Source of the DNA: a virus | IMG/VR virus record: IMGVR_UViG_3300006921_000110 | Location: 1-27,587 of that record | DNA: 27,587 bases | Direction: 5' to 3' (one strand) | Shown: in pieces, positions 10,221-27,510 of the stretch | Position numbering within the stretch: the first letter of the stretch is position 1 | How the letters are laid out: each line of letters starts with the position of its first letter | Program-made: the position numbers and the translations under genes | Notes under the pieces: generated by a model | What the model was told of the DNA's origin: nothing | Seen by the model: only the letters and a program-made list of their open reading frames with translations | Databases searched by the model: none

Positions 10221-10240
10221 AAGGAACAATGCTATAATTG
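10221..10240 (+). promoter_or_regulatory. Early-type promoter module before the nuclease gene
   Basis: AAGGAACAA-TGC-TATAAT, an extended -10 box, with the ATG 10 bases after TATAAT. It is the leftmost and most divergent copy of the module repeated through the right part of the window. Confidence 0.65.
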
Positions 10241-10248
10241 TGATAATA

Positions 10249-10947
10249 ATGAAAGCTCCAATTACATTCGACGAACCGTCGCATACTTATACTCATAATG
10301 AAACAGGTGAGAAGTATACATCTGTAACAACCCTACTTGGTAAGTATAAGAAGCCATTCGACTCTGATGCGACATCATTGCGAGTAGCTCAACGTGAGGG
10401 GGTCTCACAAGAGGTTGTATTGGAGATGTGGGAGAAAGAGAAGAACAGAGCATGTGATCGTGGTACAGAGATTCATAAGTTGCTTGAGGATTATATCTCA
10501 TTCGGTGAAGAGGCTCCTGATTGGGGCTGGTTGTTTAAGAGCTATGATAAGTGTGCAGGCTATAATGTAGATAAGTACAAGAAGGTTCTTTGTGAGGAGC
10601 TTGTATGGAGTGAAGAGTTTAAGATCTCTGGCTTAGCTGATCTATTCTACATTCACTCTGATAATACATTCACCATTGGAGACTTCAAGACCAATAAGCG
10701 TTATAGGTTCAGTTCAATGTATAAAGATTGGATGCTTGAGCCTCTTGAGCACCTTCCTGTATGTGAACACTCTACTTATGGTATGCAGCTATCCATTTAT
10801 GCTTACTTATATGAGCAGATGACTGGTATGAAATGTCGTCAGTTGGTTATTTATTACCTTAATAAAGATCGATTTGTAGCTCACCACCCCAACTATATGA
10901 AGGCAGAGGTAAAGGAGCTATTCAAACATTTTTATTATAACAAATAA
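10249..10947 (+). CDS. PD-(D/E)XK nuclease, RecB/Cas4-like
   Basis: 232 residues. RecB-family motifs are in order: RGTEIHKLLE (H76, E80), GLADLFYI (D131), IGDFKT (D145, K147) and QLSIY (Q180, Y184). These form the metal-binding site of PD-(D/E)XK exonucleases. In phages such enzymes act in DNA recombination, repair or host DNA degradation. I see no Cys cluster, so a Cas4-type iron-sulfur centre is not supported. An in-frame TTG at 10210 exists but lies upstream of the TATAAT box, so the ATG at 10249 is chosen. It is the first gene of the long plus-strand series. Confidence 0.82.
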   Translation: MKAPITFDEPSHTYTHNETGEKYTSVTTLLGKYKKPFDSDATSLRVAQREGVSQEVVLEMWEKEKNRACDRGTEIHKLLEDYISFGEEAPDWGWLFKSYDKCAGYNVDKYKKVLCEELVWSEEFKISGLADLFYIHSDNTFTIGDFKTNKRYRFSSMYKDWMLEPLEHLPVCEHSTYGMQLSIYAYLYEQMTGMKCRQLVIYYLNKDRFVAHHPNYMKAEVKELFKHFYYNK

Positions 10948-10996
10948 GTCTTGAATACTCTCACCCATTAACTAAGTAATAACACCTACTAACCCC

Positions 10997-11197
10997 ATGA
11001 AAAAGAGTACCCTAATTAATAAGTTTGAAACAAAACTAGACAATGCAATGGAAGCTTTATATGATGCACGTGATATCATAGAAGAGACCGGTGAGATTGA
11101 TACTGATGATCTCAACGTAATTATTGAAAGCATTGAAGAGCAAGTCGCTGAAGCATCTGAAAAGGTTGTTGAGGCTATTGAAGATATCGAAGAGTAA
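10997..11197 (+). CDS. Small acidic helical protein, unknown
   Basis: 66 residues, no recognised family. It is almost wholly helix-forming, with a regular hydrophobic spacing over IIESIEEQVAEASEKVVEAIEDIEE that suggests a coiled coil. The N-terminus is basic (MKKSTLINK) and the rest strongly acidic. No clear module or late box precedes the ATG; the upstream 49 bases are AC-rich. Confidence 0.6.
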   Translation: MKKSTLINKFETKLDNAMEALYDARDIIEETGEIDTDDLNVIIESIEEQVAEASEKVVEAIEDIEE

Positions 11198-11210
11198 TAT
11201 ACAATCAGGT

Positions 11211-12062
11211 ATGAAGTCAAAAGTACTTATCCTAGGTAAGGGTTATGTAGGTAGCTATGTCTACGCTAACATGGCACTTAACCCAGCTATTGAAGTAGAA
11301 GCTCTATCTAAAGCTGAAGTAGACTATACTGATGAGTACAACCTTCGCTCTATCTTAAGAGAGAATAAATACGATTACCTTATCAATGCACAAGGCTTTA
11401 CTGGTCGACCGAATGTAGATCAAGCCGAAGTAGAAAAAGAAGCTTGCTGGAAGTACAATGTTAAAGTACCTCTGATGATCAATACTCTCTGTAGAGAGCT
11501 TCATGTACAACCTATTCATATTACATCTGGTTGTATCTTTACTGGTTATGATAAAGCATGGAGTGAGATTGATGAACCTAACTTCGGAGTATTCAATCCC
11601 GATTCATCTTTCTATTCTACAAGTAAGCATGCATTTGAGTCTTTAAGTGATAATGGTATCACTATTCGTATTCGTATGCCCTTCTGTGACATTCTTCACG
11701 ATAGGTCTTACCTTACTAAGATTCATAAGTATGATAATCTTATTGCTGCTGTCAACTCTAAGACTTATATTCCTGAGCTTGTAGACTTTATTGAGTGTAT
11801 TGTTGAAGAAGGTCGTGTAGGTCATGATGTTGTTCACTTTACTAATCCTGAGCCTCTTGATACCGGAGGTGTGATTGATATTATGAGAGGCTTTGAGCTC
11901 GAGAACCTTAACTGGAATTGGGTTGATATTGAAGAGCTTGACCTTGCAGCTGGTAGATCTAATTGTATTCTAGATACTACAAAGGTTAAAGAAGAGTATG
12001 GCTACACACTCTCTACTGAAGCAGAAGCTCTTAAAAAGGCTCTTGCTGCCATTACTGCTTGA
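11211..12062 (+). CDS. NAD(P)-dependent sugar reductase/epimerase, RmlD-like extended SDR
   Basis: 283 residues. The Rossmann motif GKGYVG (9-14) begins the protein, a D-Y-T-D segment follows as in dTDP-4-dehydrorhamnose reductases, then catalytic S106 (ITSGCIF) and YSTSK (Y135, K139). RmlD-type enzymes reduce 4-keto sugars; substrate specificity cannot be read here. The frame is open upstream to 11124, but that would lie inside the previous gene. The ATG at 11211 has AGGT directly before it as in the module, with a weak TATACAAT. A 4,6-dehydratase-like gene 2 kb downstream could supply its substrate. Confidence 0.75.
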   Translation: MKSKVLILGKGYVGSYVYANMALNPAIEVEALSKAEVDYTDEYNLRSILRENKYDYLINAQGFTGRPNVDQAEVEKEACWKYNVKVPLMINTLCRELHVQPIHITSGCIFTGYDKAWSEIDEPNFGVFNPDSSFYSTSKHAFESLSDNGITIRIRMPFCDILHDRSYLTKIHKYDNLIAAVNSKTYIPELVDFIECIVEEGRVGHDVVHFTNPEPLDTGGVIDIMRGFELENLNWNWVDIEELDLAAGRSNCILDTTKVKEEYGYTLSTEAEALKKALAAITA

Positions 12063-12070
12063 TTAAATAA
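12063..12070 (+). promoter_or_regulatory. T4-late-like promoter box of hub-like gene
   Basis: TTAAATAA, six bases before the ATG at 12077, overlapping the previous TGA stop region. It is the only late box among the sugar genes and marks a virion gene there. Confidence 0.6.
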
Positions 12071-12076
12071 GTATGT

Positions 12077-13555
12077 ATGAGCTTAACAACATTTGAAAAT
12101 CATAATCTTGACTTCAAGGTATCCTTGATCAAGATGAAGCGTAAGCTGGATGGTGAGCGTGTTGTAGATGTTATTGAGGATACTATTGATCTCAATAATG
12201 GCTCTGTATTAGACTTAGAGTTCACGGAGAGCTCTCTCACAATGGGCATTAAAGGTGCTATTGCTATTACCAATGATAATAAGATTCTAGATCGCTTTAA
12301 CATCACTACAAATAGTCCTGATGACTTATATGTAGCATTTGAGATTAATGATCTTGAATTGGCAGAAGTTGACTTCCCTGATGAAAATAAAGTTCTTACT
12401 GCAATATGTTTGATCTCTGGCACAACAGCTGTAACTAAAGGACCTGTAAAGAATGCAGTTGTATTTAGCTTTGAAGAGGCCTTTGTTGCTGCTACTAAAT
12501 TAACACAGTGTCAATACTATGACGGTAAAGGTGCTGATATTGGCTTAGGTGAGATTCTTAATAATACTAATGCCCTTGAATTGGCAGACCTTTTTAATAA
12601 TCAAGTTTATAAGCTGAAGTCAGAGGAGACAATTATATCGCCTAATTCAACTCAACCTGCTACTCGACATAATATCAAGATTCAAGATAAGCATAATGTA
12701 TCGGTTTATGATGCTTTACAAAAGATGGTGAAGGAGTCAGGTGCTTTTGGTCAGGTTAGTTTTGTAAATGGAGTGGGTAAGACACCTTACTTCCGTTTTG
12801 TTAACGATATCACCGGAGCTGGTGAGGTTAAGAGATTGCTCAAGTACGATGCCTTTCTGTCTGATAGACATGTAGAGTTTGCTACTACTGTTAAAGCGGG
12901 TGGGACTACAGGAGACTATGCTGATGTTTATACAGAGAAATTTTTATTAGGCCCATTTGCTGATGCCAATCCTAATGATCCTAATGCCTCAATCCACAAT
13001 AGAATTGAAGATTACAACATTACAAGAGCTGATATAGCTGCTCTTAGACAAAAAGTATGGGGTGATTATAATGTTAATAACTCTCGACCTGTAGTTGATC
13101 CAGGTTTCGTTGCAATCATTCACAAGTCTTTCTTTGATCTGCAGATGGAGTTCATTGAAAGAGAGCTTGGATCAGACGAATTAGAATGTCATTTGCCTCT
13201 CTTACCTGGTGCTGAGCTTAGAGACTTCCACTTCGATGCTAATACTCTCTCTACAGACATTGACGCTCAATCATCTATCGAACAAGTTAATCAGAGAATA
13301 TCTAATACAGTAATGAAGAGCTTCTTAACTCTTAATGAATCAATTACCTTTAATGTTAAAGGGGCTGTATACAGGCAGCCTAATAAATTTATTTGGGTTG
13401 AAGATGGTGTAGATAGAGAAGACTATAAGAAGCTTTGGTATGTAAATAGCGTCAGCCATAAGTTCAAAGATGGTAAGTATAGAACTCAGATCGTTGCTAC
13501 TAAGATCTTTGGTGATACCTCATTAAAAGCTCTTATTGCGAACTCTATCAGTTGA
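12077..13555 (+). CDS. Probable virion protein, baseplate-hub (gp27/gpD)-like
   Basis: 492 residues. The N-terminal part looks beta-rich (SLTMGIKGAIAITNDN), and the C-terminus (KLWYVNSVSHKFKDGKYRT, then TKIFGD) has the W-V--V-H-F-GKY pattern seen at the end of many phage hub or late-control proteins. T4 gp27 has 391 residues. The late-type promoter supports a structural role. It stands alone between nucleotide-sugar genes, far from the tail cluster, as in phages with scattered tail genes. The hub assignment is an inference from pattern; 'late structural protein' is the safer reading. Confidence 0.5.
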   Translation: MSLTTFENHNLDFKVSLIKMKRKLDGERVVDVIEDTIDLNNGSVLDLEFTESSLTMGIKGAIAITNDNKILDRFNITTNSPDDLYVAFEINDLELAEVDFPDENKVLTAICLISGTTAVTKGPVKNAVVFSFEEAFVAATKLTQCQYYDGKGADIGLGEILNNTNALELADLFNNQVYKLKSEETIISPNSTQPATRHNIKIQDKHNVSVYDALQKMVKESGAFGQVSFVNGVGKTPYFRFVNDITGAGEVKRLLKYDAFLSDRHVEFATTVKAGGTTGDYADVYTEKFLLGPFADANPNDPNASIHNRIEDYNITRADIAALRQKVWGDYNVNNSRPVVDPGFVAIIHKSFFDLQMEFIERELGSDELECHLPLLPGAELRDFHFDANTLSTDIDAQSSIEQVNQRISNTVMKSFLTLNESITFNVKGAVYRQPNKFIWVEDGVDREDYKKLWYVNSVSHKFKDGKYRTQIVATKIFGDTSLKALIANSIS

Positions 13556-13586
13556 TTTTTACACAATCATACATTAATATAGATGT

Positions 13587-14162
13587 ATGCGATACGATCC
13601 TTTAGTTGACTCTCATAAGAGTAATGTGTATAAGAAGATTAAGTCTGTTAATTTTGGTAAGGATATAGTTGCATTCACTGCTGGTAACTTTGATATTATT
13701 CATCCCGGCTATACAGCTACCTTCGAAGAAGCAAAGAGACATTGCGATAAGTTCATTGTCTTCTTGCATGGTGATCCATCAGCTACTCGTAATACAAAGT
13801 ACAAGCCTGTAGTACCTTACTACGATCGTTATAAGATGCTCATGTCTATCAAGTACATCGATGAGGTCTATATGTATCAGACAGAAGAAGAGCTCTTAGA
13901 GCTTATGAAGACCTTTAAGCTTGATGTTCGTATTCTTGGAGAAGATTATCTTGGTAAGTCCTTTACAGGTGATAACTTAGAGCATGAGGTAATCTACACT
14001 ACAAGATCACATGAGTGGAGCACCACACGCTTTAAAAATAGGATTACTGCAATGACTATGATCCAGAATGAGAAGCTTCGTAAGAAGATGTATGAGGTAC
14101 TTGACAACGAAGCTGCTTGTGAAGATATTCTCGATGGAGACTTTACAAAATTAGAAAGATGA
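13587..14162 (+). CDS. Cytidylyltransferase-like nucleotidyltransferase
   Basis: 191 residues. GNFDIIHPGY (33-42) is the nucleotide-binding HxGH region and EWSTTRFK (143-150) is the second signature, as in glycerol-3-phosphate or heptose cytidylyl/adenylyltransferases. The second His of HxGH is Tyr here (Y42). The enzyme would activate a phosphorylated sugar or polyol with CTP or ATP. The stop overlaps the next gene start (ATGA), so the dehydratase-like gene is coupled to it. A weak module remnant (TATAGATGT) precedes the ATG. Substrate unknown. Confidence 0.72.
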   Translation: MRYDPLVDSHKSNVYKKIKSVNFGKDIVAFTAGNFDIIHPGYTATFEEAKRHCDKFIVFLHGDPSATRNTKYKPVVPYYDRYKMLMSIKYIDEVYMYQTEEELLELMKTFKLDVRILGEDYLGKSFTGDNLEHEVIYTTRSHEWSTTRFKNRITAMTMIQNEKLRKKMYEVLDNEAACEDILDGDFTKLER

Positions 14163-15103
14163 AAGAAAAGAAAAACTATTTAGTAACTGGAGCTGCTGGC
14201 TTCATTGGCTCTCATGTTGTAGATGAGCTACTCAAGCGCGATGATGTACTTAGTATTTTCATCATCGATAAACTTGGTATGGGTTCAGATATAGAGCACG
14301 TTCATCACGATAAACGTATTCAGTTTATTCACGATGATATTGCTTATGATAGTGCTTATGAGTATCTTCCTAAGATCGACTACATCCTTAACCTTGCTGC
14401 TGAGTCTCATGTTGATAGATCTATTACCAATCCTCTAGCGTGCATTACTAGTAACGTAATGGGAACTGGAAAGATTCTCGAGCTCGCCCGGGTCGATCGA
14501 GCGAGACTGGTTCATATATCAACCGATGAAGTCTATGGACACCTTCAGTTAGATGAGCCAGCCTTCACTGAGGACACTAACCTTGCTCCACGTAGCCCTT
14601 ACTCTGCTACTAAGGCAGGTGCTGATCTATTAGTTCAGTCTTATATTACAACCTTTGGTATCGATGCATCCATTACTCGATGCTGCAACAACTACGGGCC
14701 AAGACAAGCTGATGAGAAGCTCATCCCTACTGTGATTGGAAAGCTGCTCAAAGATGAACCTATTCCTATCTATGGAAATGGTCAGAACATTCGCGAGTGG
14801 GTTCATGTTACGGATCATGCTAAAGCAATCCTCGAAGTACTTCATGAAGGTGAGAGTGGAACTGTTTATAATATTCCTGGAAGCCTTCACCTAACTAATC
14901 TTGAGATTGTTGATAAGATTATCGAGAAGGTTCTTGAGTACAAACCTGAGATCAATCCATCAATCGAGTTTGTAGAAGATAGAGCAGGTCATGACTTCAA
15001 ATATTCTGTCAGTACTAAACATTCATTAAGATCTGTTAAATATCAACGATCCTTTGATCTCACAGATACTGTAGAATATTACTTGAAAAAACTAGTTGAT
15101 TAG
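14159..15103 (+). CDS. dTDP-glucose 4,6-dehydratase-like (RmlB-like)
   Basis: 314 residues, slightly shorter than RmlB (about 355). It has GAAGFIGSH (11-19), the dehydratase triad STDEVYG (T122, D123, E124), YSATK (Y148, K152) and RCCNNYGPRQ. The TDE triad separates 4,6-dehydratases from simple epimerases. It would form a 4-keto-6-deoxy nucleotide sugar, and the RmlD-like gene nearby could reduce it. The ATG overlaps the previous stop by four bases. A short GC-rich patch at 14477-14505 within the gene stands out from the surrounding AT-rich sequence. Confidence 0.85.
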   Translation: MKEKKNYLVTGAAGFIGSHVVDELLKRDDVLSIFIIDKLGMGSDIEHVHHDKRIQFIHDDIAYDSAYEYLPKIDYILNLAAESHVDRSITNPLACITSNVMGTGKILELARVDRARLVHISTDEVYGHLQLDEPAFTEDTNLAPRSPYSATKAGADLLVQSYITTFGIDASITRCCNNYGPRQADEKLIPTVIGKLLKDEPIPIYGNGQNIREWVHVTDHAKAILEVLHEGESGTVYNIPGSLHLTNLEIVDKIIEKVLEYKPEINPSIEFVEDRAGHDFKYSVSTKHSLRSVKYQRSFDLTDTVEYYLKKLVD

Positions 15104-15129
15104 TGTCAAACAGCAGCCATAATATAGGT

Positions 15130-15318
15130 ATGAGTAAGAAGAGTTTCCCAAAGAAACCATTCAGGTTCGGTAAGTTTGTCGTAGAATATCGCGATGAGGC
15201 TAAGAGTCCTGTACACTTCCTCAAGGAAGAAATCAATACAGAAGAGGATGCTGACGCTGCTGTCGCTAAATTAGAAGCCGATGGTAAGCAGAAAGTTACC
15301 GTTAAGCAGGTTGGATAA
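15130..15318 (+). CDS. Small basic protein, unknown
   Basis: 62 residues: a Lys/Phe-rich N-terminus (MSKKSFPKKPFRFGKF) then an acidic helical part. The frame is open upstream to a GTG at 15103, but the ATG at 15130 follows AATATAGGT, a degenerate form of the module end, so I use it. No family recognised. Confidence 0.65.
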   Translation: MSKKSFPKKPFRFGKFVVEYRDEAKSPVHFLKEEINTEEDADAAVAKLEADGKQKVTVKQVG

Positions 15319-15339
15319 GGAACTCTGCTATAATTAGGT
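15317..15339 (+). promoter_or_regulatory. Early-type promoter module
   Basis: AAGGAACTC-TGC-TATAAT-TAGGT directly before ATG. It shares two bases with the preceding TAA stop. Confidence 0.75.
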
Positions 15340-15570
15340 ATGAAGAAAACGTACCAAGTTTATTGTACTGTTGGAGGTTCAAGTGAGGATGTTGCTCTAT
15401 TTGAGAGTACTGACTTTAATGAATGCGCTAAAGTCTGGGAAGAATATGAGCGCAATCCTATGAAGGCCAACTGCCCCACACGAGACTATCTTCGAAGCTG
15501 GGGTCCTGGTATTGATGGATTCTACATTTGTGAGGTGAAGCCGGGTGGAACGAGGGCATTTCTCACTTAA
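15340..15570 (+). CDS. Small protein, unknown
   Basis: 76 residues, no recognised family. It begins with a beta-strand-like MKKTYQVYCTV and has three Cys and several aromatic residues (YLRSWGPGIDGFYICEV). A single compact domain is likely. A promoter module lies on each side. Confidence 0.7.
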   Translation: MKKTYQVYCTVGGSSEDVALFESTDFNECAKVWEEYERNPMKANCPTRDYLRSWGPGIDGFYICEVKPGGTRAFLT

Positions 15571-15592
15571 AGGAACTCTGATATAATTAGGT
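15570..15592 (+). promoter_or_regulatory. Early-type promoter module
   Basis: AAGGAACTC-TGA-TATAAT-TAGGT before ATG: the consensus form with extended -10. It overlaps the previous TAA by one base. Confidence 0.78.
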
Positions 15593-15703
15593 ATGAACAT
15601 TAACAGAGATATGAAGTACGCATTCATCGTAGCGCTAGCAATCTGCGCATTTAACCTAGCTGGTGACATCACATACGCACTTTCTGAGTTGATTAACCTC
15701 TAA
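15593..15703 (+). CDS. 36-residue one-helix membrane peptide
   Basis: MNINRDMKYA then a hydrophobic helix (FIVALAICAFNLAG) and a short polar end. It is preceded by a perfect module and followed by the next one, which argues that this very short frame is a real gene. Such peptides could act on the host membrane; function unknown. Confidence 0.6.
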   Translation: MNINRDMKYAFIVALAICAFNLAGDITYALSELINL

Positions 15704-15725
15704 TGGAACTCAGCTACAATTAGTC
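15703..15725 (+). promoter_or_regulatory. Early-type promoter module, variant
   Basis: AATGGAACTC-AGC-TACAAT-TAGTC region before ATG. Spacing is kept although the box is TACAAT. Confidence 0.65.
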
Positions 15726-16196
15726 ATGGTAATACTAGAACCGTCACCTGGAATCAAAAAGTCTACCGGCATCGACTTCGATGTGTTAGGAGATGTTATA
15801 TCGATGATCTATATGAATACTCATCGCAAGCCGGTTGACTTTGTTTGTAAGATTCATAAGAGTAGAGATCCTGGAGTCAGTCAAGTAACTTACTCTGACG
15901 ATGCTAAGTCAGGTACTAAGTTCGATATGAAGCTCGATCAGACCTCTCGTCAGACTCGTAAGTTTGTATTCGGTTCTATATTGCATGAGCTTCGTCATTG
16001 TTGCCAGCTTAATATATGGAACTACTGGAGTGATGATGTATCTAAGTTCAAGACATACGAAGACTATTTTGACTCTAAGGAAGAGCGTGACGCTCGTAAG
16101 GCGGAGCAGATGACTGCTATTGTTATCAAGCTCTATGATAACGCTATGAAGGCTAAGGAATTGTATAAGGACTTCGGTCTAACTAAATTAGGATAA
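15726..16196 (+). CDS. Putative zinc metalloprotease (HExxH)
   Basis: 156 residues. ILHELRHCCQ carries HExxH (H87, E88, H91); a later Arg/Glu-rich helix (EERDARKAEQ, E127) could give the third ligand, as in gluzincin-type proteins. The N-terminal half has beta strands typical of small zincin-like phage proteins. There is no signal peptide, so it is intracellular. The target is unknown. The TAA stop overlaps the next ATG. Confidence 0.6.
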   Translation: MVILEPSPGIKKSTGIDFDVLGDVISMIYMNTHRKPVDFVCKIHKSRDPGVSQVTYSDDAKSGTKFDMKLDQTSRQTRKFVFGSILHELRHCCQLNIWNYWSDDVSKFKTYEDYFDSKEERDARKAEQMTAIVIKLYDNAMKAKELYKDFGLTKLG

Positions 16197-16477: not shown

Positions 16478-16659
16478 TGGAAGCAAAAGTAAGCAATTTT
16501 TTGTTTAAGCTCGATAGAGCTGCTGGTGTCATCGAAGTGTTTGATGGTAGTGAAGCAGTACGTCCAATTGGATTTATTCGAGTGAAAGATGAAGTCACTG
16601 AGAAAGAGTTTCATACTGAGATCTCTTATTGGATGATGGAAAATAGTAATCAATTTTAG
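16477..16659 (+). CDS. Small protein, unknown, third of the coupled unit
   Basis: 60 residues. A beta-rich pattern (FLFKLDRAAGVIEVFDG, then PIGFIRVKDEV) is followed by a short helix. It starts inside the previous stop (TAATG). No family recognised. The structured intergenic region follows its stop. Confidence 0.65.
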   Translation: MEAKVSNFLFKLDRAAGVIEVFDGSEAVRPIGFIRVKDEVTEKEFHTEISYWMMENSNQF

Positions 16660-16827
16660 ACACTTTGTACTGCTGGCTGAGGAAACATCTGAGACGTTTT
16701 TCTTTCAACCTGGTCGCAGCCGACGCCAGCAGTACACATAATTTGGATGATTGTCTTGCAGGTCGAGACTCTTGTTCTGACTCCTGAGGCACATCCGGTC
16801 CACCCATGTGGCCTCAGGAGTCTCCTA
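16660..16827 (+). ncRNA. Candidate structured RNA with two long stems
   Basis: 168 bases without a gene in a region where genes are otherwise about 20 bases apart, and clearly more GC-rich than its surroundings. Stem 1: TGTACTGCTGGC (16666-16677) pairs perfectly with 16725-16736, enclosing 47 bases that include a GGTCG-CAGC-CGAC hairpin. Stem 2: GACTCCTGAGGC (16779-16790) pairs perfectly with 16811-16822 and extends by ACAT/ATGT with one bulged G around an 11-base loop. No T run follows either stem, so they are not ordinary terminators. Not a tRNA: no cloverleaf or T-arm is visible. Strand is inferred from the neighbours. Confidence 0.5.
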
Positions 16828-16850
16828 AAGGAACTCTGATATAATTAGGT
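16828..16850 (+). promoter_or_regulatory. Early-type promoter module
   Basis: AAGGAACTC-TGA-TATAAT-TAGGT before ATG. A TAA precedes it although no gene ends here, which suggests the TAA came along with the module. Confidence 0.77.
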
Positions 16851-17153
16851 ATGACAGAACATCAAAAAGCTAATAGAATCAAGTATCTCATCGAATATAT
16901 TACTGGATGGGAGTACAAATATGGTAGTAAGGCTCCAGCGAAGATGTATGAGGAGCTTAAGAGGCTTGAGAGTGAGGAGCAAACTGATCGTGACAAATTT
17001 ATTGAAGAGCGTGACGCTGCTTCTAAGCTGAGAGATGAGCTCTGTTGGGCAGTTGGCTACATATCTGACGATCCTAATCTACGAGTTGTCAGCGATAGGA
17101 TTGAGAAGGCTTTAAAAGAGCATGACGCTAATCGATGCCAGCGCTGGTTCTAA
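16851..17153 (+). CDS. Helical protein, unknown
   Basis: 100 residues, highly charged and almost wholly helical (YEELKRLESEEQTDRDKFI, then DRIEKALKEHD), probably a coiled-coil or helical bundle. No family recognised. Stop abuts the next module. Confidence 0.72.
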   Translation: MTEHQKANRIKYLIEYITGWEYKYGSKAPAKMYEELKRLESEEQTDRDKFIEERDAASKLRDELCWAVGYISDDPNLRVVSDRIEKALKEHDANRCQRWF

Positions 17154-17176
17154 AAGGAACTCTGATACAATTAGGT
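17154..17176 (+). promoter_or_regulatory. Early-type promoter module, TACAAT variant
   Basis: AAGGAACTC-TGA-TACAAT-TAGGT before ATG, directly after the previous TAA. Confidence 0.72.
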
Positions 17177-17554
17177 ATGAAAGAAATCAAAGACATTATT
17201 TGTTACGAGGACGATATGCTGAACTCTACTATCGTTCAAGTAGAAGGTACTTATTGTAAGCATGGTGCTGGTTATGTGTCAGAAGGAGATGAAGGAGTTC
17301 AAGAGGAGGGAGAACCTAAAGTAGCTGGTCCATGGGCTTTCTTCTACCCTCTTGCTTCTGTTCTTACTGATAACTATCCCGGTAAAGAAGCTGACCTACA
17401 GCGGAAACGAGACAATACAATCGTCGTAAATGGAGGTGAGCTTGTTCGTATTGATGGGCATGTTTATGAGGTATCTCTTAATAGACGTGGAAGTCAGGCT
17501 TGGATCGATCTCGCGCCAGTTAAGAAAGGTGCACCTAAATGCCCTCGTGGATAA
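17177..17554 (+). CDS. Unknown protein
   Basis: 125 residues. An acidic Gly/Glu-rich middle (SEGDEGVQEEGEPK) is followed by a beta-rich end (NGGELVRIDGHVYEVSLNRRG). The frame is open upstream to 17135 inside the previous gene; the ATG at 17177 is set by the module. No family recognised. Confidence 0.7.
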   Translation: MKEIKDIICYEDDMLNSTIVQVEGTYCKHGAGYVSEGDEGVQEEGEPKVAGPWAFFYPLASVLTDNYPGKEADLQRKRDNTIVVNGGELVRIDGHVYEVSLNRRGSQAWIDLAPVKKGAPKCPRG

Positions 17555-17576
17555 GGAACTCCGATATAATAAGAGT
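17553..17576 (+). promoter_or_regulatory. Early-type promoter module
   Basis: AAGGAACTC-CGA-TATAAT-AAGAGT before ATG, one base longer than usual. It overlaps the previous TAA. Confidence 0.7.
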
Positions 17577-17687
17577 ATGGAACATAAAAGTATTATTGAT
17601 GCCGTTGTTGATATTATTATCATCATTAGTGTAAGTGTTGTAATGACGAGTGCAGTTGCAATTATCTTTAAGTATTTTTCTAATTAA
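17577..17687 (+). CDS. 36-residue one-helix membrane peptide
   Basis: MEHKSIIDAVV then a long hydrophobic helix (DIIIIISVSVVMTSAVAIIF) and KYFSN. The length equals that of the peptide at 15593, but the sequence is not alike. The longer upstream frame (from 17430) overlaps the previous gene and is rejected; the module fixes this start. Confidence 0.6.
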   Translation: MEHKSIIDAVVDIIIIISVSVVMTSAVAIIFKYFSN

Positions 17688-18080: not shown

Positions 18081-18268
18081 TGCATAAGGTACTTGTTGAT
18101 CATAAGATTACTTGGCGTCGTTGGCTACGTGCTAATACAAAAGGTCAGTGGCGTGTGAGGTTTAAGACGGACCAACCAGATTGGTACTACTTCGAAGAGA
18201 AAGAAGATGCAGATAATTTTGATGCTCACGTAAAAGAGTACGTTGATAATCTCAAAAAGGAGCTATAA
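18080..18268 (+). CDS. Small basic/aromatic protein, unknown
   Basis: 62 residues, Trp-rich (ITWRRWLRANTKGQWRVRF, PDWYYF), with an acidic helical end. Starts in the previous stop (TAATG). The TAA stop lies inside the next promoter module. No family recognised. Confidence 0.65.
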   Translation: MHKVLVDHKITWRRWLRANTKGQWRVRFKTDQPDWYYFEEKEDADNFDAHVKEYVDNLKKEL

Positions 18269-18279
18269 TATAATAAGGT
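18257..18279 (+). promoter_or_regulatory. Early-type promoter module, within the end of the preceding gene
   Basis: AAGGAGCTA-TAA-TATAAT-AAGGT before ATG. Its first nine bases encode the last residues of the previous gene, and its middle TAA is that gene's stop. Confidence 0.68.
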
Positions 18280-18543
18280 ATGAAGAAGGAGTATGGAAAG
18301 GACATTGAGTGGTATTATCACCCTCTTGAAGAAAAGTGTTGGGATTATGCCGCAGTTCGAGGTAACTTTAATGAAGCTGTTGAAACTTTTATTGATGATG
18401 CTCAGAAAAAAGGTGATTTTGAAGAGACAGAAATTCTTGGATTTCTAAAATCTAAATTAGAAAGTAAAATATTCTATGCTAAACAGCAAGTAGAGTGGGT
18501 GAAGTTTTTTGAGGAAAATGAGGAGAATATTCTGCTTGTATAA
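18280..18543 (+). CDS. Acidic helical protein, unknown
   Basis: 87 residues; the N-terminus is aromatic (DIEWYYHPLEEKCWDY) and the rest helical and acidic. No family recognised. Confidence 0.7.
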   Translation: MKKEYGKDIEWYYHPLEEKCWDYAAVRGNFNEAVETFIDDAQKKGDFEETEILGFLKSKLESKIFYAKQQVEWVKFFEENEENILLV

Positions 18544-18565
18544 AGGAACTATAATATAATTAGGT
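18543..18565 (+). promoter_or_regulatory. Early-type promoter module
   Basis: AAGGAACTA-TAA-TATAAT-TAGGT before ATG. Shares one base with the previous TAA. Confidence 0.75.
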
Positions 18566-18818: not shown

Positions 18819-19220
18819 ATGAATACGATTAAACTTAAAGATAGTGAACTTTATGATCTCCTTGTAGAGGTTTGTGAAGAGCTTGGATATACAGAACTTA
18901 TGCCCTCCCCTTGTTCTTTGTTTACTCATAAGAAGACTGATGCGCAGCGCGCTGTAGTAGCGGCTAGTTCTGGATCTACTAAACCTTTCAAAGAGGGTGA
19001 TGATATTAAAGAGTACATTACTGAGCTTGTAGAGAGCTCAGTTAAGAGATATGGTAATGGTGGTATCCTTTACCCTTACAAGATTCAAAAAGGTTTTCAG
19101 AATGAGAAGCTGATTCTTCGTGGTGCATTTCAGCCTGAAGGATACAAGACTAACTTTAAGAGTCCTGCTAATAAGGATAAGATCAAGGCTGAACTTGATG
19201 CTGCTGAAGAGAAGTCGTAA
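18819..19220 (+). CDS. Unknown protein
   Basis: 133 residues. It begins with a helix (SELYDLLVEVCEELGY) and has a central basic strand region (YPYKIQKGFQNEKLILRG) and a charged helical C-terminus. No family recognised. Second gene of a two-gene unit with 18566-18817. Confidence 0.7.
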   Translation: MNTIKLKDSELYDLLVEVCEELGYTELMPSPCSLFTHKKTDAQRAVVAASSGSTKPFKEGDDIKEYITELVESSVKRYGNGGILYPYKIQKGFQNEKLILRGAFQPEGYKTNFKSPANKDKIKAELDAAEEKS

Positions 19221-19241
19221 GGAACTCTGTTATAATTAGGT
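19219..19241 (+). promoter_or_regulatory. Early-type promoter module
   Basis: AAGGAACTC-TGT-TATAAT-TAGGT before ATG, overlapping the previous TAA. Confidence 0.77.
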
Positions 19242-19867: not shown

Positions 19868-20071
19868 ATGAGTAAATACATGAGACCAAGAAGTAAAGAA
19901 TGGTCAGAAGAAGAGATAGAGATCATCACTAGGATGGGAGCAGAAGATAGGACTATTGATGAGTGTTTCAGTCGTCTTGATAAGGATTTCAATGATGTTC
20001 TTAAGAAGGTCAAAGAGGTTCTTGGTAGAGAGTTGCGACCTAGCGCACGATCAGGATCGTCTTCCCTATAA
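19868..20071 (+). CDS. Small protein with Myb/SANT-like helical pattern
   Basis: 67 residues. SKEWSEEEIEIITRMGAED followed by a second and third helix resembles the W-x-x-E-E-x-x-x-I start of Myb/SANT or GcrA-like DNA-binding helices. The match is weak and short, and a Ser-rich tail follows. A start at 19853 would overlap the previous gene; the ATG at 19868 follows its stop by four bases. Regulator role is speculative. Confidence 0.58.
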   Translation: MSKYMRPRSKEWSEEEIEIITRMGAEDRTIDECFSRLDKDFNDVLKKVKEVLGRELRPSARSGSSSL

Positions 20072-20092
20072 GGAACTCTGATATAATTAAGG
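20070..20092 (+). promoter_or_regulatory. Early-type promoter module with leader
   Basis: AAGGAACTC-TGA-TATAAT, but the ATG lies 21 bases after the box. The leader is purine-rich (AGAAAGAAAGATA), like those at 24511 and 24792. Confidence 0.75.
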
Positions 20093-21126: not shown

Positions 21127-21161
21127 GTTGATAATAGAAGAGTAGGTTTTATAATATGAGT

Positions 21162-22594: not shown

Positions 22595-22617
22595 AAGGAA
22601 CTCTGATATAATTAGGT
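22595..22617 (+). promoter_or_regulatory. Early-type promoter module
   Basis: AAGGAACTC-TGA-TATAAT-TAGGT before ATG, 28 bases after the EF-hand gene. Consensus form. Confidence 0.78.
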
Positions 22618-22932
22618 ATGAAGGAAGTTAATATAGCTGCCGTAGAGAAGAAGATTGCTACCATTAAGAAGGCCTCAGATGGGGCTATTAAGCTCATGAT
22701 TGAGCTGAGAAAAGAGTATACTGAAGTTGATACATTTAATGATAATGGATCTGAGCGTGAGATGCGTGTATGGACATGTCATGAGCAACGCAGACGCTCA
22801 TACGATCTCAATAATATCCGGCTTGCATATGATGCAAAGTCCTTCGAGTTGGAGAAGCTCCTCAGTACTTATCAAGAGTCTGCTGAAGCAATCAACAAGC
22901 TGATGACCAGCAATACTGAAGTTAATTTTTAA
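22618..22932 (+). CDS. Helical protein, unknown
   Basis: 104 residues, helical and charged (VEKKIATIKKASDGAIKLMI, then FELEKLLSTYQESAEAINKL), probably coiled coil. It heads a run of six genes (to 24026) that lack own modules, so it likely leads an operon. Confidence 0.7.
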   Translation: MKEVNIAAVEKKIATIKKASDGAIKLMIELRKEYTEVDTFNDNGSEREMRVWTCHEQRRRSYDLNNIRLAYDAKSFELEKLLSTYQESAEAINKLMTSNTEVNF

Positions 22933-22935: not shown

Positions 22936-23112
22936 ATGAAACAAGACAAGACAACAACACTCGGAAGAGAATACTTTCTCGAATCTCTCCCAGTAGAGTG
23001 GAATGAGAAGCTAGACGGACCACGTCCATCTAAACAACAAAAGAAGAAAGGTGATGTGATTGTAAACTCAAGCGAGCTACAAACACTCAAGAACTTAGGA
23101 CTACTTAAATAA
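22936..23112 (+). CDS. 58-residue protein, unknown
   Basis: MKQDKTTTLGREYFLESLP then a Lys-rich middle (PSKQQKKKGD) and a helical end. Three bases after the previous stop, and one base before the next gene. Length and spacing support it; no family recognised. Confidence 0.6.
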   Translation: MKQDKTTTLGREYFLESLPVEWNEKLDGPRPSKQQKKKGDVIVNSSELQTLKNLGLLK

Positions 23113-23113
23113 A

Positions 23114-23392
23114 ATGACAATACTAGAGACAATTGGATACTACGCTGGATTTCTCTATGCAGGAATCTTCTGCGCAAGTTATATCCCACAATTCATCAAG
23201 ACATTAAAGACAAAAAAGGTGGATGATCTATCTTTGAACATGTTTCTTCTGTCTGTTGTTGCATACTCAAGCCTCTTTACTTATCAGTTCTATATTGGCT
23301 TTAAACTTGCAATGGTTCTTAACTGCTTACTTGGAGGATCATTCAGCCTCTTCTTTGTAATTGCTATTCTTAAATGGCGTACCAAAAATTAA
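23114..23392 (+). CDS. SemiSWEET / PQ-loop family transporter
   Basis: 92 residues, the usual SemiSWEET size, with three membrane helices (about 5-25, 40-62, 66-87). The PQ motif is in SYIPQFIKT (P25, Q26), then DDLSLNMFLL, and an Asn in helix 3 (LNCLLGG, N70). These proteins form dimers that move sugars across the inner membrane. The usual helix-2 Trp appears replaced by Tyr (TYQFYIG). In a phage it may change host sugar uptake or release. It sits in an operon of small unknown genes, one base after the previous stop. Confidence 0.82.
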   Translation: MTILETIGYYAGFLYAGIFCASYIPQFIKTLKTKKVDDLSLNMFLLSVVAYSSLFTYQFYIGFKLAMVLNCLLGGSFSLFFVIAILKWRTKN

Positions 23393-23593
23393 ATGACACA
23401 CGACGAACAAGATGAACTAATCAAGATGGTTAATGATACTATCAAGAACTTAGAAGAGGTAGTGCGCTACGTCGACAACAATAAGTACAAAGCAGAGTGC
23501 AAAACCATTAACCTTCAAGACTGTGAGCATAAGCTTAAGTTTCAGAAGGCAGCCATTAAGGAAGTAACCCAAAGCCTTTTATATTTATCATGA
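23393..23593 (+). CDS. Small helical protein, unknown
   Basis: 66 residues, helical and charged (LIKMVNDTIKNLEEVVRYVD), with two Cys. It starts directly after the SemiSWEET stop and its TGA overlaps the next ATG. No family recognised. Confidence 0.65.
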   Translation: MTHDEQDELIKMVNDTIKNLEEVVRYVDNNKYKAECKTINLQDCEHKLKFQKAAIKEVTQSLLYLS

Positions 23594-23739
23594 ACATCAT
23601 AGGAGTACTAATCACAGTAACAGTCTTTCTCACCGTACATACATTCATCATGAAGATGTTTAAGAGTGTAGAGAAGTATAAGGAAGAAGAAAAGCTTCCA
23701 CGAACACCATCAGCTATCAATCCAAAGTTCTTTCGATAA
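23590..23739 (+). CDS. 49-residue membrane-anchored peptide
   Basis: MNIIGVLITVTVFLTVHTFI forms one membrane helix, followed by a basic and acidic tail (KSVEKYKEEEKLPRTPSA). It overlaps both neighbours (ATGA and TAATG), which supports real translation. Confidence 0.58.
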   Translation: MNIIGVLITVTVFLTVHTFIMKMFKSVEKYKEEEKLPRTPSAINPKFFR

Positions 23740-24026
23740 TGAGTAACCGTAAACATAAATCAGATATTCCTGAAGTAGTTATCGACTATTGTATCGATGA
23801 GAAAATGACTGTAGCAGAAGGTCTTGTTGCTTATCTAGAGGATCACTTTGCAGTAGTTGATAGCGCTCTTAGAGATCTTAAACGAGAGGTAACGAGTGTT
23901 ATTGGTTACTCTGATAAAGAGTTGGCAGAGATTGATAAGCTGGACGAGAAGAGAGGGATGGATGATATTGAATCCTTCCTCAAGTTCTTAGAAGATCAAG
24001 CAGCTGAAGACTCTGAGGAGTTTTAA
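23739..24026 (+). CDS. Acidic helical protein, unknown
   Basis: 95 residues: a short basic start, then helices (EGLVAYLEDHFAVVDSALRD) and an acidic C-terminus. Translationally coupled to the membrane peptide. Last gene of the module-less run. Confidence 0.68.
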   Translation: MSNRKHKSDIPEVVIDYCIDEKMTVAEGLVAYLEDHFAVVDSALRDLKREVTSVIGYSDKELAEIDKLDEKRGMDDIESFLKFLEDQAAEDSEEF

Positions 24027-24064
24027 GCAGTTGACTTTTATAGAAGATATACTAAAATACTCTC

Positions 24065-24301
24065 GTGAAACTAAAATTGTACAAAGCAGTTCAAAGACAT
24101 AAGGTCGAGCTTGTTTGGACAATAGATGTTGATCCATCTCTCAGAGATAGAGGTCATACTTGGTTTAGAAGAGCTCTTGATAGTGATGAGTGGGATATAG
24201 AGCAAGATCAATTAGACATTCGAGAGCAGTTCCCTTCAAGTCTAAAAGTCGAGCAAGGAGATCTTATCTGCGTGGGAGGAAGTCAATGCTACATAATGTA
24301 A
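24065..24301 (+). CDS. Unknown protein, GTG start
   Basis: 78 residues, beginning KLKLYKAVQRHKVELVWTID and ending ICVGGSQCYIM. The only in-frame start is a GTG at 24065; the upstream TATACTAAAAT could be a weak promoter. No family recognised. Confidence 0.6.
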   Translation: MKLKLYKAVQRHKVELVWTIDVDPSLRDRGHTWFRRALDSDEWDIEQDQLDIREQFPSSLKVEQGDLICVGGSQCYIM

Positions 24302-24323
24302 AGGAACTCTAATATAATAAGGT
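24301..24323 (+). promoter_or_regulatory. Early-type promoter module
   Basis: AAGGAACTC-TAA-TATAAT-AAGGT before ATG, sharing one base with the previous TAA. Confidence 0.75.
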
Positions 24324-24503
24324 ATGATCGAAAACGAAACAGTTGATCTAGATGATAAGGGAAGAGTAATCTTTCGTAGTAGAGAAGAAGATGGGTTAAT
24401 TCAAGAATGGACCTATGAGTATGATAAGAATGGTAAGCAGATAGAAACTACTTACTATGAAGAGACATGTAATGAAGGTAACCTCTACTCGGAGTATGAA
24501 TAG
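24324..24503 (+). CDS. 59-residue acidic protein, unknown
   Basis: Contains EWTYEYDKNGKQIETTYY, resembling a single YD/RHS-type repeat, probably a short beta hairpin. Preceded by a perfect module. Too short for a family call. Confidence 0.62.
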   Translation: MIENETVDLDDKGRVIFRSREEDGLIQEWTYEYDKNGKQIETTYYEETCNEGNLYSEYE

Positions 24504-24510: not shown

Positions 24511-24534
24511 AAGGAACTCTGTTATAATTAAAGA
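24511..24534 (+). promoter_or_regulatory. Early-type promoter module with purine-rich leader
   Basis: AAGGAACTC-TGT-TATAAT, then a 39-base leader of A/G and A/C runs (AGAGAAGAAAGACTTC) before the ATG at 24569. The leader shares AGAAGAAAGA with the one at 24811. Confidence 0.75.
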
Positions 24535-24568: not shown

Positions 24569-24793
24569 ATGAACGACCAATATACAACCTATATTAACTA
24601 CTTCCGTAACGACAATCAGAACAACACTGCTCTGACTCAAGTCATTCCTATGGATGTATTCGAAGCTGATGAGAAGAACGTACGTAAGTTCGTTAAAGAA
24701 ATTGGAGGAAGGATCTACTTCCGTGGACCTCGTCGAGCTTATTCACAAGACACTCTACGTAAGAATGCTAAGGGCATTGTAATCTACGCATAA
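24569..24793 (+). CDS. Unknown protein
   Basis: 74 residues, basic towards the end (GGRIYFRGPRRAYSQDTLRK); the first half has polar Asn/Gln-rich sequence. Its leader suggests conventional translation and perhaps high expression. No family recognised. Confidence 0.68.
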   Translation: MNDQYTTYINYFRNDNQNNTALTQVIPMDVFEADEKNVRKFVKEIGGRIYFRGPRRAYSQDTLRKNAKGIVIYA

Positions 24794-24815
24794 GGAACTC
24801 TACTATAATTAAAAA
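24792..24815 (+). promoter_or_regulatory. Early-type promoter module with purine-rich leader
   Basis: AAGGAACTC-TAC-TATAAT, then a 20-base leader (AAAAAGAAGAAAGAAACAA) to the ATG at 24830. Overlaps the previous TAA. Confidence 0.75.
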
Positions 24816-24829: not shown

Positions 24830-25105
24830 ATGAAATCATTAACCATTCGATTCAACAATAAGGCAGCTCTTAACGCTGCAACCACTCTGCTTACTAACCT
24901 CAACTCTCCTTTCAGGAACTCTTCTGTTCTTAATACTGTTGGTGTTGATGTTAATACTGAAGAGAAGATCAATACAAACTTCGAAGAGACTTATGAAGTT
25001 ACCTTCGCAACTCAACATTGGGCTGATCGTGCTGAACGTGAGCTCGGTCTACTCTTTAACGACCCTAACCTCTCAACTTGTGGAGCGTACAGCCTCACTC
25101 GATAG
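24830..25105 (+). CDS. Unknown protein
   Basis: 91 residues: a mixed alpha/beta pattern (SLTIRFNNKAALNAATTLL, YEVTFATQHWADRAEREL). C-ending codons (TTC, AAC) are more frequent than in neighbours, which fits high expression, as does its leader. No family recognised. Confidence 0.68.
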   Translation: MKSLTIRFNNKAALNAATTLLTNLNSPFRNSSVLNTVGVDVNTEEKINTNFEETYEVTFATQHWADRAERELGLLFNDPNLSTCGAYSLTR

Positions 25106-25388: not shown

Positions 25389-25550
25389 ATGTACAACACG
25401 AAAGAATACAAAGTAGGAGATGAAACTTGTTTTGGTGAAGTTACGATGGTAGCTCATTGGGGCTTCATCGCAGTAAATATGGATACAGAGAAGGCGAGTG
25501 TAATTGCTAATGCAGATTGGCTTGATTGGTATATGCAAGGTCGCTCTTAA
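25389..25550 (+). CDS. 53-residue protein, unknown
   Basis: MYNTKEYKVGDETCFGEVTM then AHWGFIAVNMD and a Trp-rich end (ADWLDWYMQGRS). Compact beta-rich pattern. Four bases after the previous stop; its TAA overlaps the next module. Confidence 0.6.
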   Translation: MYNTKEYKVGDETCFGEVTMVAHWGFIAVNMDTEKASVIANADWLDWYMQGRS

Positions 25551-25571
25551 GGAACTCAGATATAATTAGGT
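25549..25571 (+). promoter_or_regulatory. Early-type promoter module
   Basis: AAGGAACTC-AGA-TATAAT-TAGGT before ATG, overlapping the previous TAA. First of the CTCA subtype that dominates the right end. Confidence 0.77.
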
Positions 25572-25880
25572 ATGGAAACAGTAAAACAGCTAATAAAGAA
25601 GATTGAAGATGCGGAACTTGAAGAGTTGGTTCAGAAGGTTGAAGAAGCCTATAAGCTAACTCACGTTAAAGGTAGGGATGAGAAGGAGACCTTTGAGATC
25701 TTTGAAGCATATGACCGAGCTGTTGACAATCTTGTTGAGTTGACTGAAGGTAAGTACAATGCTTACTTGACTGATCCAATGGGATGTCTTGATTACAAAT
25801 CACTTACCGGTAAGCCTTTCTATAGTATGACCTACAATGAGCTTTGTGAGAAGCTTGGATCATATGCATTTGGTGAATAG
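25572..25880 (+). CDS. Acidic helical protein, unknown
   Basis: 102 residues, helical (TVKQLIKKIEDAELEELVQK) then a C-terminal part with aromatic residues (YKSLTGKPFYSMTYNELCEK). No family recognised. Confidence 0.7.
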   Translation: METVKQLIKKIEDAELEELVQKVEEAYKLTHVKGRDEKETFEIFEAYDRAVDNLVELTEGKYNAYLTDPMGCLDYKSLTGKPFYSMTYNELCEKLGSYAFGE

Positions 25881-25928: not shown

Positions 25929-25951
25929 AAGGAACTCAGATATAATTAGTT
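25929..25951 (+). promoter_or_regulatory. Early-type promoter module
   Basis: AAGGAACTC-AGA-TATAAT-TAGTT before ATG. A TATAAATA lies just upstream (25921-25927 region). Confidence 0.75.
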
Positions 25952-26128
25952 ATGAACAACGAAATCAAACCTCTCGATGATAAAGACTTTGAAGTCATCC
26001 ACCCTGAAGAGACAGAAAAGCCCTCTGCTGAAGAGAAAAAAATTAAAGACGGACACGCTGTAGCAGATAGAATTGCTAAACTACTAGCGCGGAACGCTCA
26101 CAAGAGTACTAAGCTTCAAGATAAGTAA
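25952..26128 (+). CDS. 58-residue charged protein, unknown
   Basis: Acidic N-terminal half (NNEIKPLDDKDFEVIHPEET), basic helical C-terminal half (HAVADRIAKLLARNAHKST). No family recognised. Next gene starts one base after the stop. Confidence 0.62.
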   Translation: MNNEIKPLDDKDFEVIHPEETEKPSAEEKKIKDGHAVADRIAKLLARNAHKSTKLQDK

Positions 26129-26129
26129 T

Positions 26130-26299: not shown

Positions 26300-26306
26300 A
26301 TAACTT

Positions 26307-26336: not shown

Positions 26337-26341
26337 GTCTA

Positions 26342-26364
26342 AAGGAACTCAGATATAATTAGGT
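26342..26364 (+). promoter_or_regulatory. Early-type promoter module
   Basis: AAGGAACTC-AGA-TATAAT-TAGGT before ATG, directly downstream of a terminator, so transcription must restart here. Confidence 0.8.
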
Positions 26365-26484
26365 ATGGAAGAGAAAGAATTTGACGAAAAAGGTTGGAGA
26401 GAATGGCTTGAGGAATCTGGTATCGAAGATATTGAAGGTGAGCTTGAAGCGATTAGGACTTCAAATTATGGCGACCCTCTATAA
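26365..26484 (+). CDS. 39-residue acidic protein, unknown
   Basis: MEEKEFDEKGWREWLEESG then an acidic helix. Module before and after. Too short for a family call. Confidence 0.58.
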   Translation: MEEKEFDEKGWREWLEESGIEDIEGELEAIRTSNYGDPL

Positions 26485-26505
26485 GGAACTCAAATATAAT
26501 TAGGT
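26483..26505 (+). promoter_or_regulatory. Early-type promoter module
   Basis: AAGGAACTC-AAA-TATAAT-TAGGT before ATG, overlapping the previous TAA. Confidence 0.77.
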
Positions 26506-26676
26506 ATGAAAGAAAAGCTGATTGCTAAGTTGTTTTCAAAAGGTGGAATTCTTCTCTTCTCGCATGAGTGTGAGGGATTTTCAAGTTTAGAGGTCGCGCA
26601 AGAGTTGGCTGAAAAGCCTTTCTTCTCAAAACATGTGGACGAATGGGGCTGCACTATGATTGTAAGCCCGCTCTAA
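26506..26676 (+). CDS. 56-residue protein, unknown
   Basis: MKEKLIAKLFSKGGILLFSH, then a helix (SLEVAQELAEK) and a strand with Cys (WGCTMIVSPL). No family recognised. Module before and after. Confidence 0.6.
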   Translation: MKEKLIAKLFSKGGILLFSHECEGFSSLEVAQELAEKPFFSKHVDEWGCTMIVSPL

Positions 26677-26698
26677 AGGAACTTAACTATAATTAGGT
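26676..26698 (+). promoter_or_regulatory. Early-type promoter module
   Basis: AAGGAACTT-AAC-TATAAT-TAGGT before ATG, sharing one base with the previous TAA. Confidence 0.75.
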
Positions 26699-26920
26699 AT
26701 GAAGAAATTCGATAATTACGAGCAGAAGAGGCAAGTGTTGGAGCATATGGATGAGCTTGTGAACTGCTTTACTGATAAGCTTAAGATTCTGGATGCATTA
26801 GATAGTGATAGAGCTTGTAGCGGTTGTGCAGATCTTAATGATCAGCTCACTACCTTATGGAGGCTTAAGACTGATCTTAAGGCTTGTATTCAAAGAGGTA
26901 AGGATGTTGTTCCTTTCTAA
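26699..26920 (+). CDS. Helical protein, unknown
   Basis: 73 residues, mostly helical (QKRQVLEHMDELVNCFTDKL) with CSGC (41-44) and two further Cys, so metal binding is possible but unproven. No family recognised. Confidence 0.68.
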   Translation: MKKFDNYEQKRQVLEHMDELVNCFTDKLKILDALDSDRACSGCADLNDQLTTLWRLKTDLKACIQRGKDVVPF

Positions 26921-26942
26921 GGGAACTCAAATATAATTAGGT
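26920..26942 (+). promoter_or_regulatory. Early-type promoter module
   Basis: AGGGAACTC-AAA-TATAAT-TAGGT before ATG, sharing one base with the previous TAA. Confidence 0.75.
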
Positions 26943-27149
26943 ATGGACAAAGAAATGGAAATGACTCGACATGGAGGACCTTACGATAGAGGAGCAGCTG
27001 ATGCATACTATCAACGTCCTGCTACCCCTCATTACTTCAAAGGAGACTCTTATCAGTCAGAAAAGGTTGAAATAGCTGACATGACTGATAAAGAGAAAGA
27101 GCAGTATGCATTAGGTTATCTTGGATGCTCTTCTCGTAAGGTTTGGTAA
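26943..27149 (+). CDS. Conserved phage protein of unknown function (HGGPYDRGAADAYY type)
   Basis: 68 residues with HGGPYDRGAADAYYQRPATP and a later DMTDKE...YALGY segment, a pattern I recognise from many phage and bacterial small proteins of unknown function. It is probably a single-domain cytoplasmic protein. Confidence 0.72.
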   Translation: MDKEMEMTRHGGPYDRGAADAYYQRPATPHYFKGDSYQSEKVEIADMTDKEKEQYALGYLGCSSRKVW

Positions 27150-27171
27150 AGGAACTCAAATATAATTAGGT
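27149..27171 (+). promoter_or_regulatory. Early-type promoter module
   Basis: AAGGAACTC-AAA-TATAAT-TAGGT before ATG, overlapping the previous TAA. Confidence 0.77.
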
Positions 27172-27489
27172 ATGATTACGAAAGAATTACTCGATCACGT
27201 CAACAAGCTGAATCTTAAAGCTGAAGAGTGGATGGCAGCTGCTCCAGAAGGCAGCTATCGTATGGCAGCAATCTACGATGATCAGGCTATTGCTGATCGT
27301 GTAGAGTATAATGGAGTTAAGACTCCTGCTGATTGGGATGCTCTTGAGGCATGGAGCGAGTATTACGATCTGTATAAAGATATCGAGGGTATCTCTCCTC
27401 GATGGACCAAATGGTCTGAGAATACAGCAGAAGGTTGGGAGAGGGCTATGGAGTCTCTTGAAGAAGAAATAACCCCTTGTGAATATTAA
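27172..27489 (+). CDS. Acidic protein, unknown (YKDIEGISPRW type)
   Basis: 105 residues. YYDLYKDIEGISPRWTKW resembles the 'D-YK---G-RPRW' segment of a widespread small phage protein family of unknown function. Otherwise helical and acidic. Confidence 0.7.
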   Translation: MITKELLDHVNKLNLKAEEWMAAAPEGSYRMAAIYDDQAIADRVEYNGVKTPADWDALEAWSEYYDLYKDIEGISPRWTKWSENTAEGWERAMESLEEEITPCEY

Positions 27490-27510
27490 GGAACTCTCAT
27501 ATAATTAGGT
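27488..27510 (+). promoter_or_regulatory. Early-type promoter module
   Basis: AAGGAACTC-TCA-TATAAT-TAGGT before ATG, overlapping the previous TAA. Confidence 0.76.

Follow-up and report, generated by a model that had tools for sequence, protein, structure and literature searches.

Module copies in the window

The viral contig IMGVR_UViG_3300006921_000110 (27.6 kb; IMG/VR record positions 1-27,587, all 27,587 nucleotides of which form the window analysed here) carries an array of genes preceded by a short repeated module, AAGGAACTC-N3-TATAAT-TAGGT, in which a GGAACT box and a TATAAT hexamer typically stand directly before a start codon. The modules lie within 10221-27510 and, judged by their sequence statistics, behave as sigma70-type promoters. 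The window was assigned to a T4-superfamily myovirus, with tail sheath, tail tube and terminase proteins that match PHROGs tail and packaging families and a terminase that is ~36% identical to those of phages phiM9 and HTVC008M. A megablast search of the window against INPHARED gave zero matches, and the ten most widely shared array genes gave no assignable family in Pfam and PHROGs.

The full 23-mer, with up to three mismatches allowed, has 21 matches in the window, every one of them on the plus strand, against a mean of 0.02 and a maximum of 1 in shuffled sequences. The core, AAGGAACTC-N3-TATAAT with up to two mismatches, occurs 23 times on the plus strand and not at all on the minus strand, and a reversed-pattern control gave 0 matches. 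These counts bear out an earlier note on this DNA, which had claimed about 23 plus-strand copies, while its figure of 19 copies with exactly 23 bp to the ATG became 18 on recounting, with a further copy at 24 bp (17553). The four remaining copies (10221, 20070, 24511 and 24792) are not fused to a start codon. The modules, and two starts of the -35/-10 class (one of them probable), are as follows:

10221..10238 (+): module variant AAGGAACAATGC-TATAAT ahead of the exonuclease gene; TTGATT lies 17 bp upstream, making it a hybrid of both promoter types
15096..15123 (+): TTGATT-16 bp-CATAAT, a probable -35/-10 start with 6 nt to the ATG at 15130
15317..15339 (+): module fused to the ATG at 15340
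15570..15592 (+): module fused to the ATG at 15593
15703..15725 (+): module variant (TACAAT) fused to the ATG at 15726
16828..16850 (+): module fused to the ATG at 16851, with non-coding DNA ahead of it
17154..17176 (+): module (TACAAT) fused to the ATG at 17177
17553..17576 (+): module with 24 bp to the ATG at 17577
18257..18279 (+): module variant (GGAGCT) fused to the ATG at 18280
18543..18565 (+): module fused to the ATG at 18566
19219..19241 (+): module fused to the ATG at 19242; 17/17 homologs in related loci are also module-fused
20070..20087 (+): module core, short A/G-rich leader, then the ATG at 20107
21128..21155 (+): start of the -35/-10 class, without GGAACT; TTGATA-16 bp-TATAAT immediately precedes the gene at 21156
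22595..22617 (+): module fused to the ATG at 22618, within non-coding DNA
24301..24323 (+): module fused to the ATG at 24324
24511..24528 (+): module core, leader of ~40 nt, then the ATG at 24569
24792..24809 (+): module core, leader of ~20 nt, then the ATG at 24830
25549..25571 (+): module fused to the ATG at 25572
25929..25951 (+): module fused to the ATG at 25952
26342..26364 (+): module fused to the ATG at 26365
26483..26505 (+): module fused to the ATG at 26506
26676..26698 (+): module fused to the ATG at 26699
26920..26942 (+): module fused to the ATG at 26943
27149..27171 (+): module fused to the ATG at 27172
27488..27510 (+): module fused to the ATG at 27511

The stop codon of an upstream open reading frame (ORF) of at least 45 codons begins 1-3 bases before the module in 14 of the 23 window copies. 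TAA or TAAA also precedes most copies at which no gene ends (16828, 22595, 24511, 25929 and 26342), and the TAA was therefore counted as part of the motif itself. The earlier note had most copies sharing bases with the preceding TAA; in the 14 copies the stop overlaps or abuts the module, and the arrangement is best read as an economy, in which the motif opens with TAA and upstream genes terminate on it. The proposal of one promoter per gene and single-gene mRNAs was not supported. From 15130 onward, only 22 of the 44 gene starts have a module of their own, and the genes without one form runs of up to six (e.g., 22936-24065), so that polycistronic RNAs must exist.

Sequence features of the proposed promoter

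We aligned 268 copies on GGAACT/TATAAT. The conserved stretch comprises a TAA-like start, AA-GGAACT-C, the -10 hexamer and the start codon, and the positions upstream of it hold ~0.05 bit each, from which it follows that there is no -35 hexamer, in agreement with the earlier note, and no larger repeated cassette. When the hexamer was left free, T-12 was conserved in 99-100% of cases, A-11 in 100%, T-7 in 99-100% and T-10 in 88-91%; this ranking, with T-12, A-11 and T-7 strongest, is as expected of a sigma70 -10 box. The spacer between GGAACT and TATAAT is exactly 4 bp in 407 of the 428 pairs found within 30 nt of each other. Such rigid spacing would fit contact by one protein or by a tightly docked pair. 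The suggestion that GGAACT is a separate promoter element was supported. At the two TGn positions of the modules, T and G each occur in 51% of copies.

We examined the relationship between GGAACT and the -35 hexamer at starts with TATAAT, TATACT or TACAAT 5-7 nt before the ATG, scoring a -35 hexamer as a sequence with no more than two mismatches to TTGACA at a distance of 15-19 bp. Among starts without GGAAC (n = 96), 58 had a -35 hexamer, compared with 21% when the test was made 20 nt further upstream, and TTGA occurred at a 16-bp spacer 27 times. In modules with GGAAC, a -35 hexamer was found in 62/264, the same as in controls (Fisher p = 2e-10 versus the GGAAC-less starts). Since the -35 hexamer is enriched only where GGAACT is absent, GGAACT replaces it, and the two are largely alternative upstream elements. 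Both promoter types occur in the window, where the start at 21128-21155 lacks GGAACT and the copy at 10221 combines both boxes. The earlier explanation for the missing -35 hexamer, that the upstream gene occupies its site, is therefore incomplete: -35/-10 starts occur in the same phages, in which only the starts with GGAACT lack a -35.

The module also occurs away from start codons. Copies without a nearby ATG (20070, 24511 and 24792 in the window) retain both GGAACT and TATAAT, with A/G-rich leaders after them. Five tRNA genes in contigs G029, G018, G155 and G154, two of them orthologous, begin 8-13 nt past a module -10 box, whereas by a rough estimate ~0.2 such adjacencies would arise by chance. 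A general promoter scan was uninformative (43 found versus 49 expected).

The distance from the end of TATAAT to the ATG is 5 nt in 115 and 6 nt in 89 of the 268 copies, which supports the earlier suggestion that the -10 box places the start at or next to the ATG; a -10 box this close would set the RNA start at or beside the A of the ATG. Shine-Dalgarno-like words, counted at -16 to -4 with one simple gene caller, precede 1-7% of module-phage genes (about background) versus 45% of genes in HTVC008M and 52% in T4. T4-type late boxes before structural genes end 5-7 nt from the ATG in module phages, which is not so in T4. Because these boxes lie at the same distance as the module -10 box, short or absent leaders look genome-wide. 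In HTVC008M itself (L067-L069), six genes have a T4 late box ending exactly 5 nt before the ATG, despite Shine-Dalgarno sequences in nearly half of its genes, and some of its late genes may be leaderless. TATAAT or TATAAC stands ~6 nt from the ATG of unrelated phage sigma genes (L090, L091 and L092), with no GGAACT, and may mark a further kind of leaderless start.

Distribution among phages and candidate readers

An exact scan of IMG/VR with AAGGAACTC-N3-TATAATTAGGTATG found 32 stretches in 29 contigs, with copies nearly all on one strand in each. A sigma-protein search added eight loci, seven of them in new contigs and all eight with modules, bringing the total to ~395 distinct module copies in some 37 related IMG/VR contigs. 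The motif is shared by related phages and phage-wide. It was absent from the nine cultured phages tested (T4, HTVC008M, phiM9, Milchi, S-T4, Atu_ph04, C48C1, Mosig and a Vibrio phage), and an INPHARED search with a 32-mer module yielded a single weak match, in a Vibrio phage, which was put down to chance; within the libraries searched, the module is not a known phage cassette, in keeping with the earlier note. Among 388 Verrucomicrobiota and 395 Bacteroidota genomes there were only scattered single matches besides one phage contig and one chimeric fragment, and a pattern scan of the whole GTDB returned only this fragment, in a contig of an Akkermansiaceae metagenome-assembled genome (MAG), and a phage contig of 14 kb from a Flavobacteriaceae MAG. 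The fragment (L061, ~7950-8330) spans a few hundred bp, contains one perfect module and lies between bacterial sequences; it is probably an assembly chimera. The module is a feature of a clade of uncultured T4-like phages, and not of the candidate hosts. Shine-Dalgarno signal is low in the small samples taken from the two phyla, two Bacteroidota genomes at 19% being the exceptions.

Modules are kept among homologs down to ~35-50% amino acid identity. They can also differ between orthologs: the window gene at 23739 has no module, yet 15/15 of its homologs have one. In L010 (~9840-9880), two modules stand in direct tandem before one gene, the TAGG of the first being the start of the second.

One subclade encodes a candidate partner for the module. 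Contig G018 encodes a primary-type sigma of 383 aa in which regions 2 and 4 are clear, and the IMG/VR search with this protein found the eight loci mentioned above, in 8/8 of which modules are present and the sigma start codon is itself module-fused. The subclade sigmas (365-385 aa; L051:10509-11660 on the minus strand, and L078-L084) are RpoD-like, lack region 1.1 and are closer to the RpoD of Verrucomicrobiota (~50-62% across the part that matched) than to the sigma of Bacteroidota (~45%). Window-lineage contigs span the syntenic region without this sigma gene, and the phage sigma as the proven universal module reader was rejected on this ground. The sole sigma of G029 (122 kb, not complete, ~40 modules) is a gp55-like late sigma. 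No clear modules were seen at twelve loci that encode other RpoD-like sigmas (L089-L100, of which L089 is a fragment of 4.5 kb at 57% identity), so the link between sigma and module is clade-specific. The subclade sigma is a clade-specific partner and not a proven reader; a shared phage activator, or a host sigma with an unusual upstream contact, are possible alternatives. Other phages that encode a sigma subunit are phiEco32 and 7-11 (PMC8948821). The module-phage subclade resembles them in this respect, whereas the window and its nearest relatives lack such a sigma and the subclade sigma gene is itself module-driven.

Several further features were observed in the window and in other contigs. 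A non-coding stretch at 16655-16828, directly before a module, forms strong hairpins (-70.8 kcal/mol versus -52.6 in shuffles, z -4.5), and related contigs hold nothing similar to it; it is possibly a structured RNA or a terminator. Two nucleotide-sugar epimerase-like genes and a nucleotidyltransferase-like gene at 11211-15103 form a cluster conserved across many module contigs. Rfam-confirmed phage transfer-messenger RNA (tmRNA) genes with three quite different tag peptides occur at L049:5643-6036, L101:15777-16193 and L115:715-1126, and two group I introns lie in the tRNA/tmRNA region of contig G019 (L049:8-197 and 4869-5063).

A probable compact promoter and its alternatives

We consider the module to be a compact sigma70-family promoter, as the earlier note had proposed, and put the probability of this at roughly 0.78. 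RNA polymerase would read TATAAT as the -10 box, with GGAACT, 4 bp further upstream (about -22 to -17 if the start is at the ATG), standing in for the -35 hexamer. Transcription would begin at the start codon or within a base or two of it, giving leaderless or nearly leaderless mRNAs that would be translated without a Shine-Dalgarno sequence, and the motif-initial TAA would double as the stop codon of the upstream gene. We infer that GGAACT is read by a phage-specified factor, which could be an activator that docks on sigma or, for one subclade, the phage RpoD-like sigma.

Several points weigh against this reading. The module contigs are kin, so the counts are not independent, and only identical duplicates were removed, in the -35 test as elsewhere. 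Leaderless starts are not universal, since genuine leaders follow a few of the modules. Neither the window nor the module contigs of 122 kb and 76 kb encode the RpoD-like sigma; the phage factor that the earlier note had envisaged at GGAACT is possible but none was found, a phage sigma being present in one subclade only. GGAACT could also be an operator rather than an activating element.

The strongest competitor, though in our view unlikely, is that the modules are host sigma70 promoters of the ordinary kind whose upstream sequence happens to be conserved, GGAACT merely strengthening an extended -10 contact with no phage factor involved. The hexamer is indeed a perfect host-type -10 box, T or G occupies the TGn positions in about half of the copies, and the module-driven subclade sigma implies that modules must work before that sigma exists. 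However, GGAACT is as invariant as the -10 box and sits further upstream than the usual TGn contact, the 783 genomes of the two phyla that gave hits contain essentially no such combination, and the same phages use -35/-10 starts that a host polymerase would already read. Less probable still is a reading in which GGAACT serves as the operator of a phage repressor or timing switch on plain -10 promoters, through which the small genes would be switched together. This reading would account for the same box in every copy and its restriction to one gene set, but GGAACT replaces the -35 hexamer instead of adding to it, and the rigid 4-bp spacing suggests contact made jointly with sigma.

Mobile cassettes or recombination sites, like the PeSL elements of T4 and serving mainly in gene shuffling, would explain why orthologs gain and lose the module (as at 23739). 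We regard this as improbable given the strict orientation, the fixed distance to the ATG, base preferences of the -10 type and module flanks without sequence conservation. PeSL-type cassettes combine a promoter and a conserved stem-loop in an intergenic cassette. The least probable alternative is that modules are translation-initiation signals in polycistronic mRNA, with AAGGA as a distant ribosome site and AGGT near the ATG. Modules do end at start codons and include AAGGA, but this lies ~17-20 nt from the ATG, Shine-Dalgarno signals are otherwise absent in these phages, base conservation obeys the -10 rule, modules are found before tRNA genes, and the promoter half persists where the start codon is 20-40 nt off; for most copies this reading is already refuted.

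The compact promoter differs from the known classes of T4 promoters. T4 early promoters consist of UP, -35, TGn and -10 elements, and the modules lack the -35 hexamer. T4 middle promoters have a MotA box (TGCTT) centred at -30, 12 +/- 1 bp from the -10 box, and leaders with ribosome sites (PMC2988021). The modules share with them a host-type -10 box and another element in the -35 role, but GGAACT is only 4 bp from the -10 box and differs in sequence from the MotA box. Like T4 with its gp55-dependent late promoters, the related phages encode gp55 homologs and have TATAAATA/TTAAATA boxes ahead of structural genes, but the modules carry TATAAT and not TATAAATA, and the late boxes belong to other genes. 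Leaderless bacterial genes are reported to lack a ribosome site and to have TANNNT ~12 bp upstream, or a motif 6-7 bp ahead of the ORF (Zheng, 2011, PMC3160421; Deinococcus-Thermus, PMC12340547). The module resembles these in its -10-type box, which begins ~11-12 nt before the ATG, and in having no ribosome site, but differs in being phage-wide, in its invariant GGAACT 4 bp upstream in the -35 role and in its fused stop codon.

We tentatively suggest, at somewhat less than even odds, a broader picture in which this clade of the T4 superfamily runs nearly its whole programme on leaderless mRNAs through three start-codon-proximal promoter types (GGAACT/-10, -35/-10 and T4-late). GGAACT would then define a new class whose reader, specified by the phage, takes the place of region-4/-35 recognition, with a captured RpoD-like sigma participating in one subclade.

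The ~395 copies constitute a large natural set of -10 promoters with an upstream box other than -35 or TGn, and they permit automatic calling of gene starts in these uncultured phages. They raise the question of what reads GGAACT, and of leaderless translation in a host whose own genes may also lack Shine-Dalgarno sequences. This phage clade appears to have dispensed with ribosome-binding leaders.

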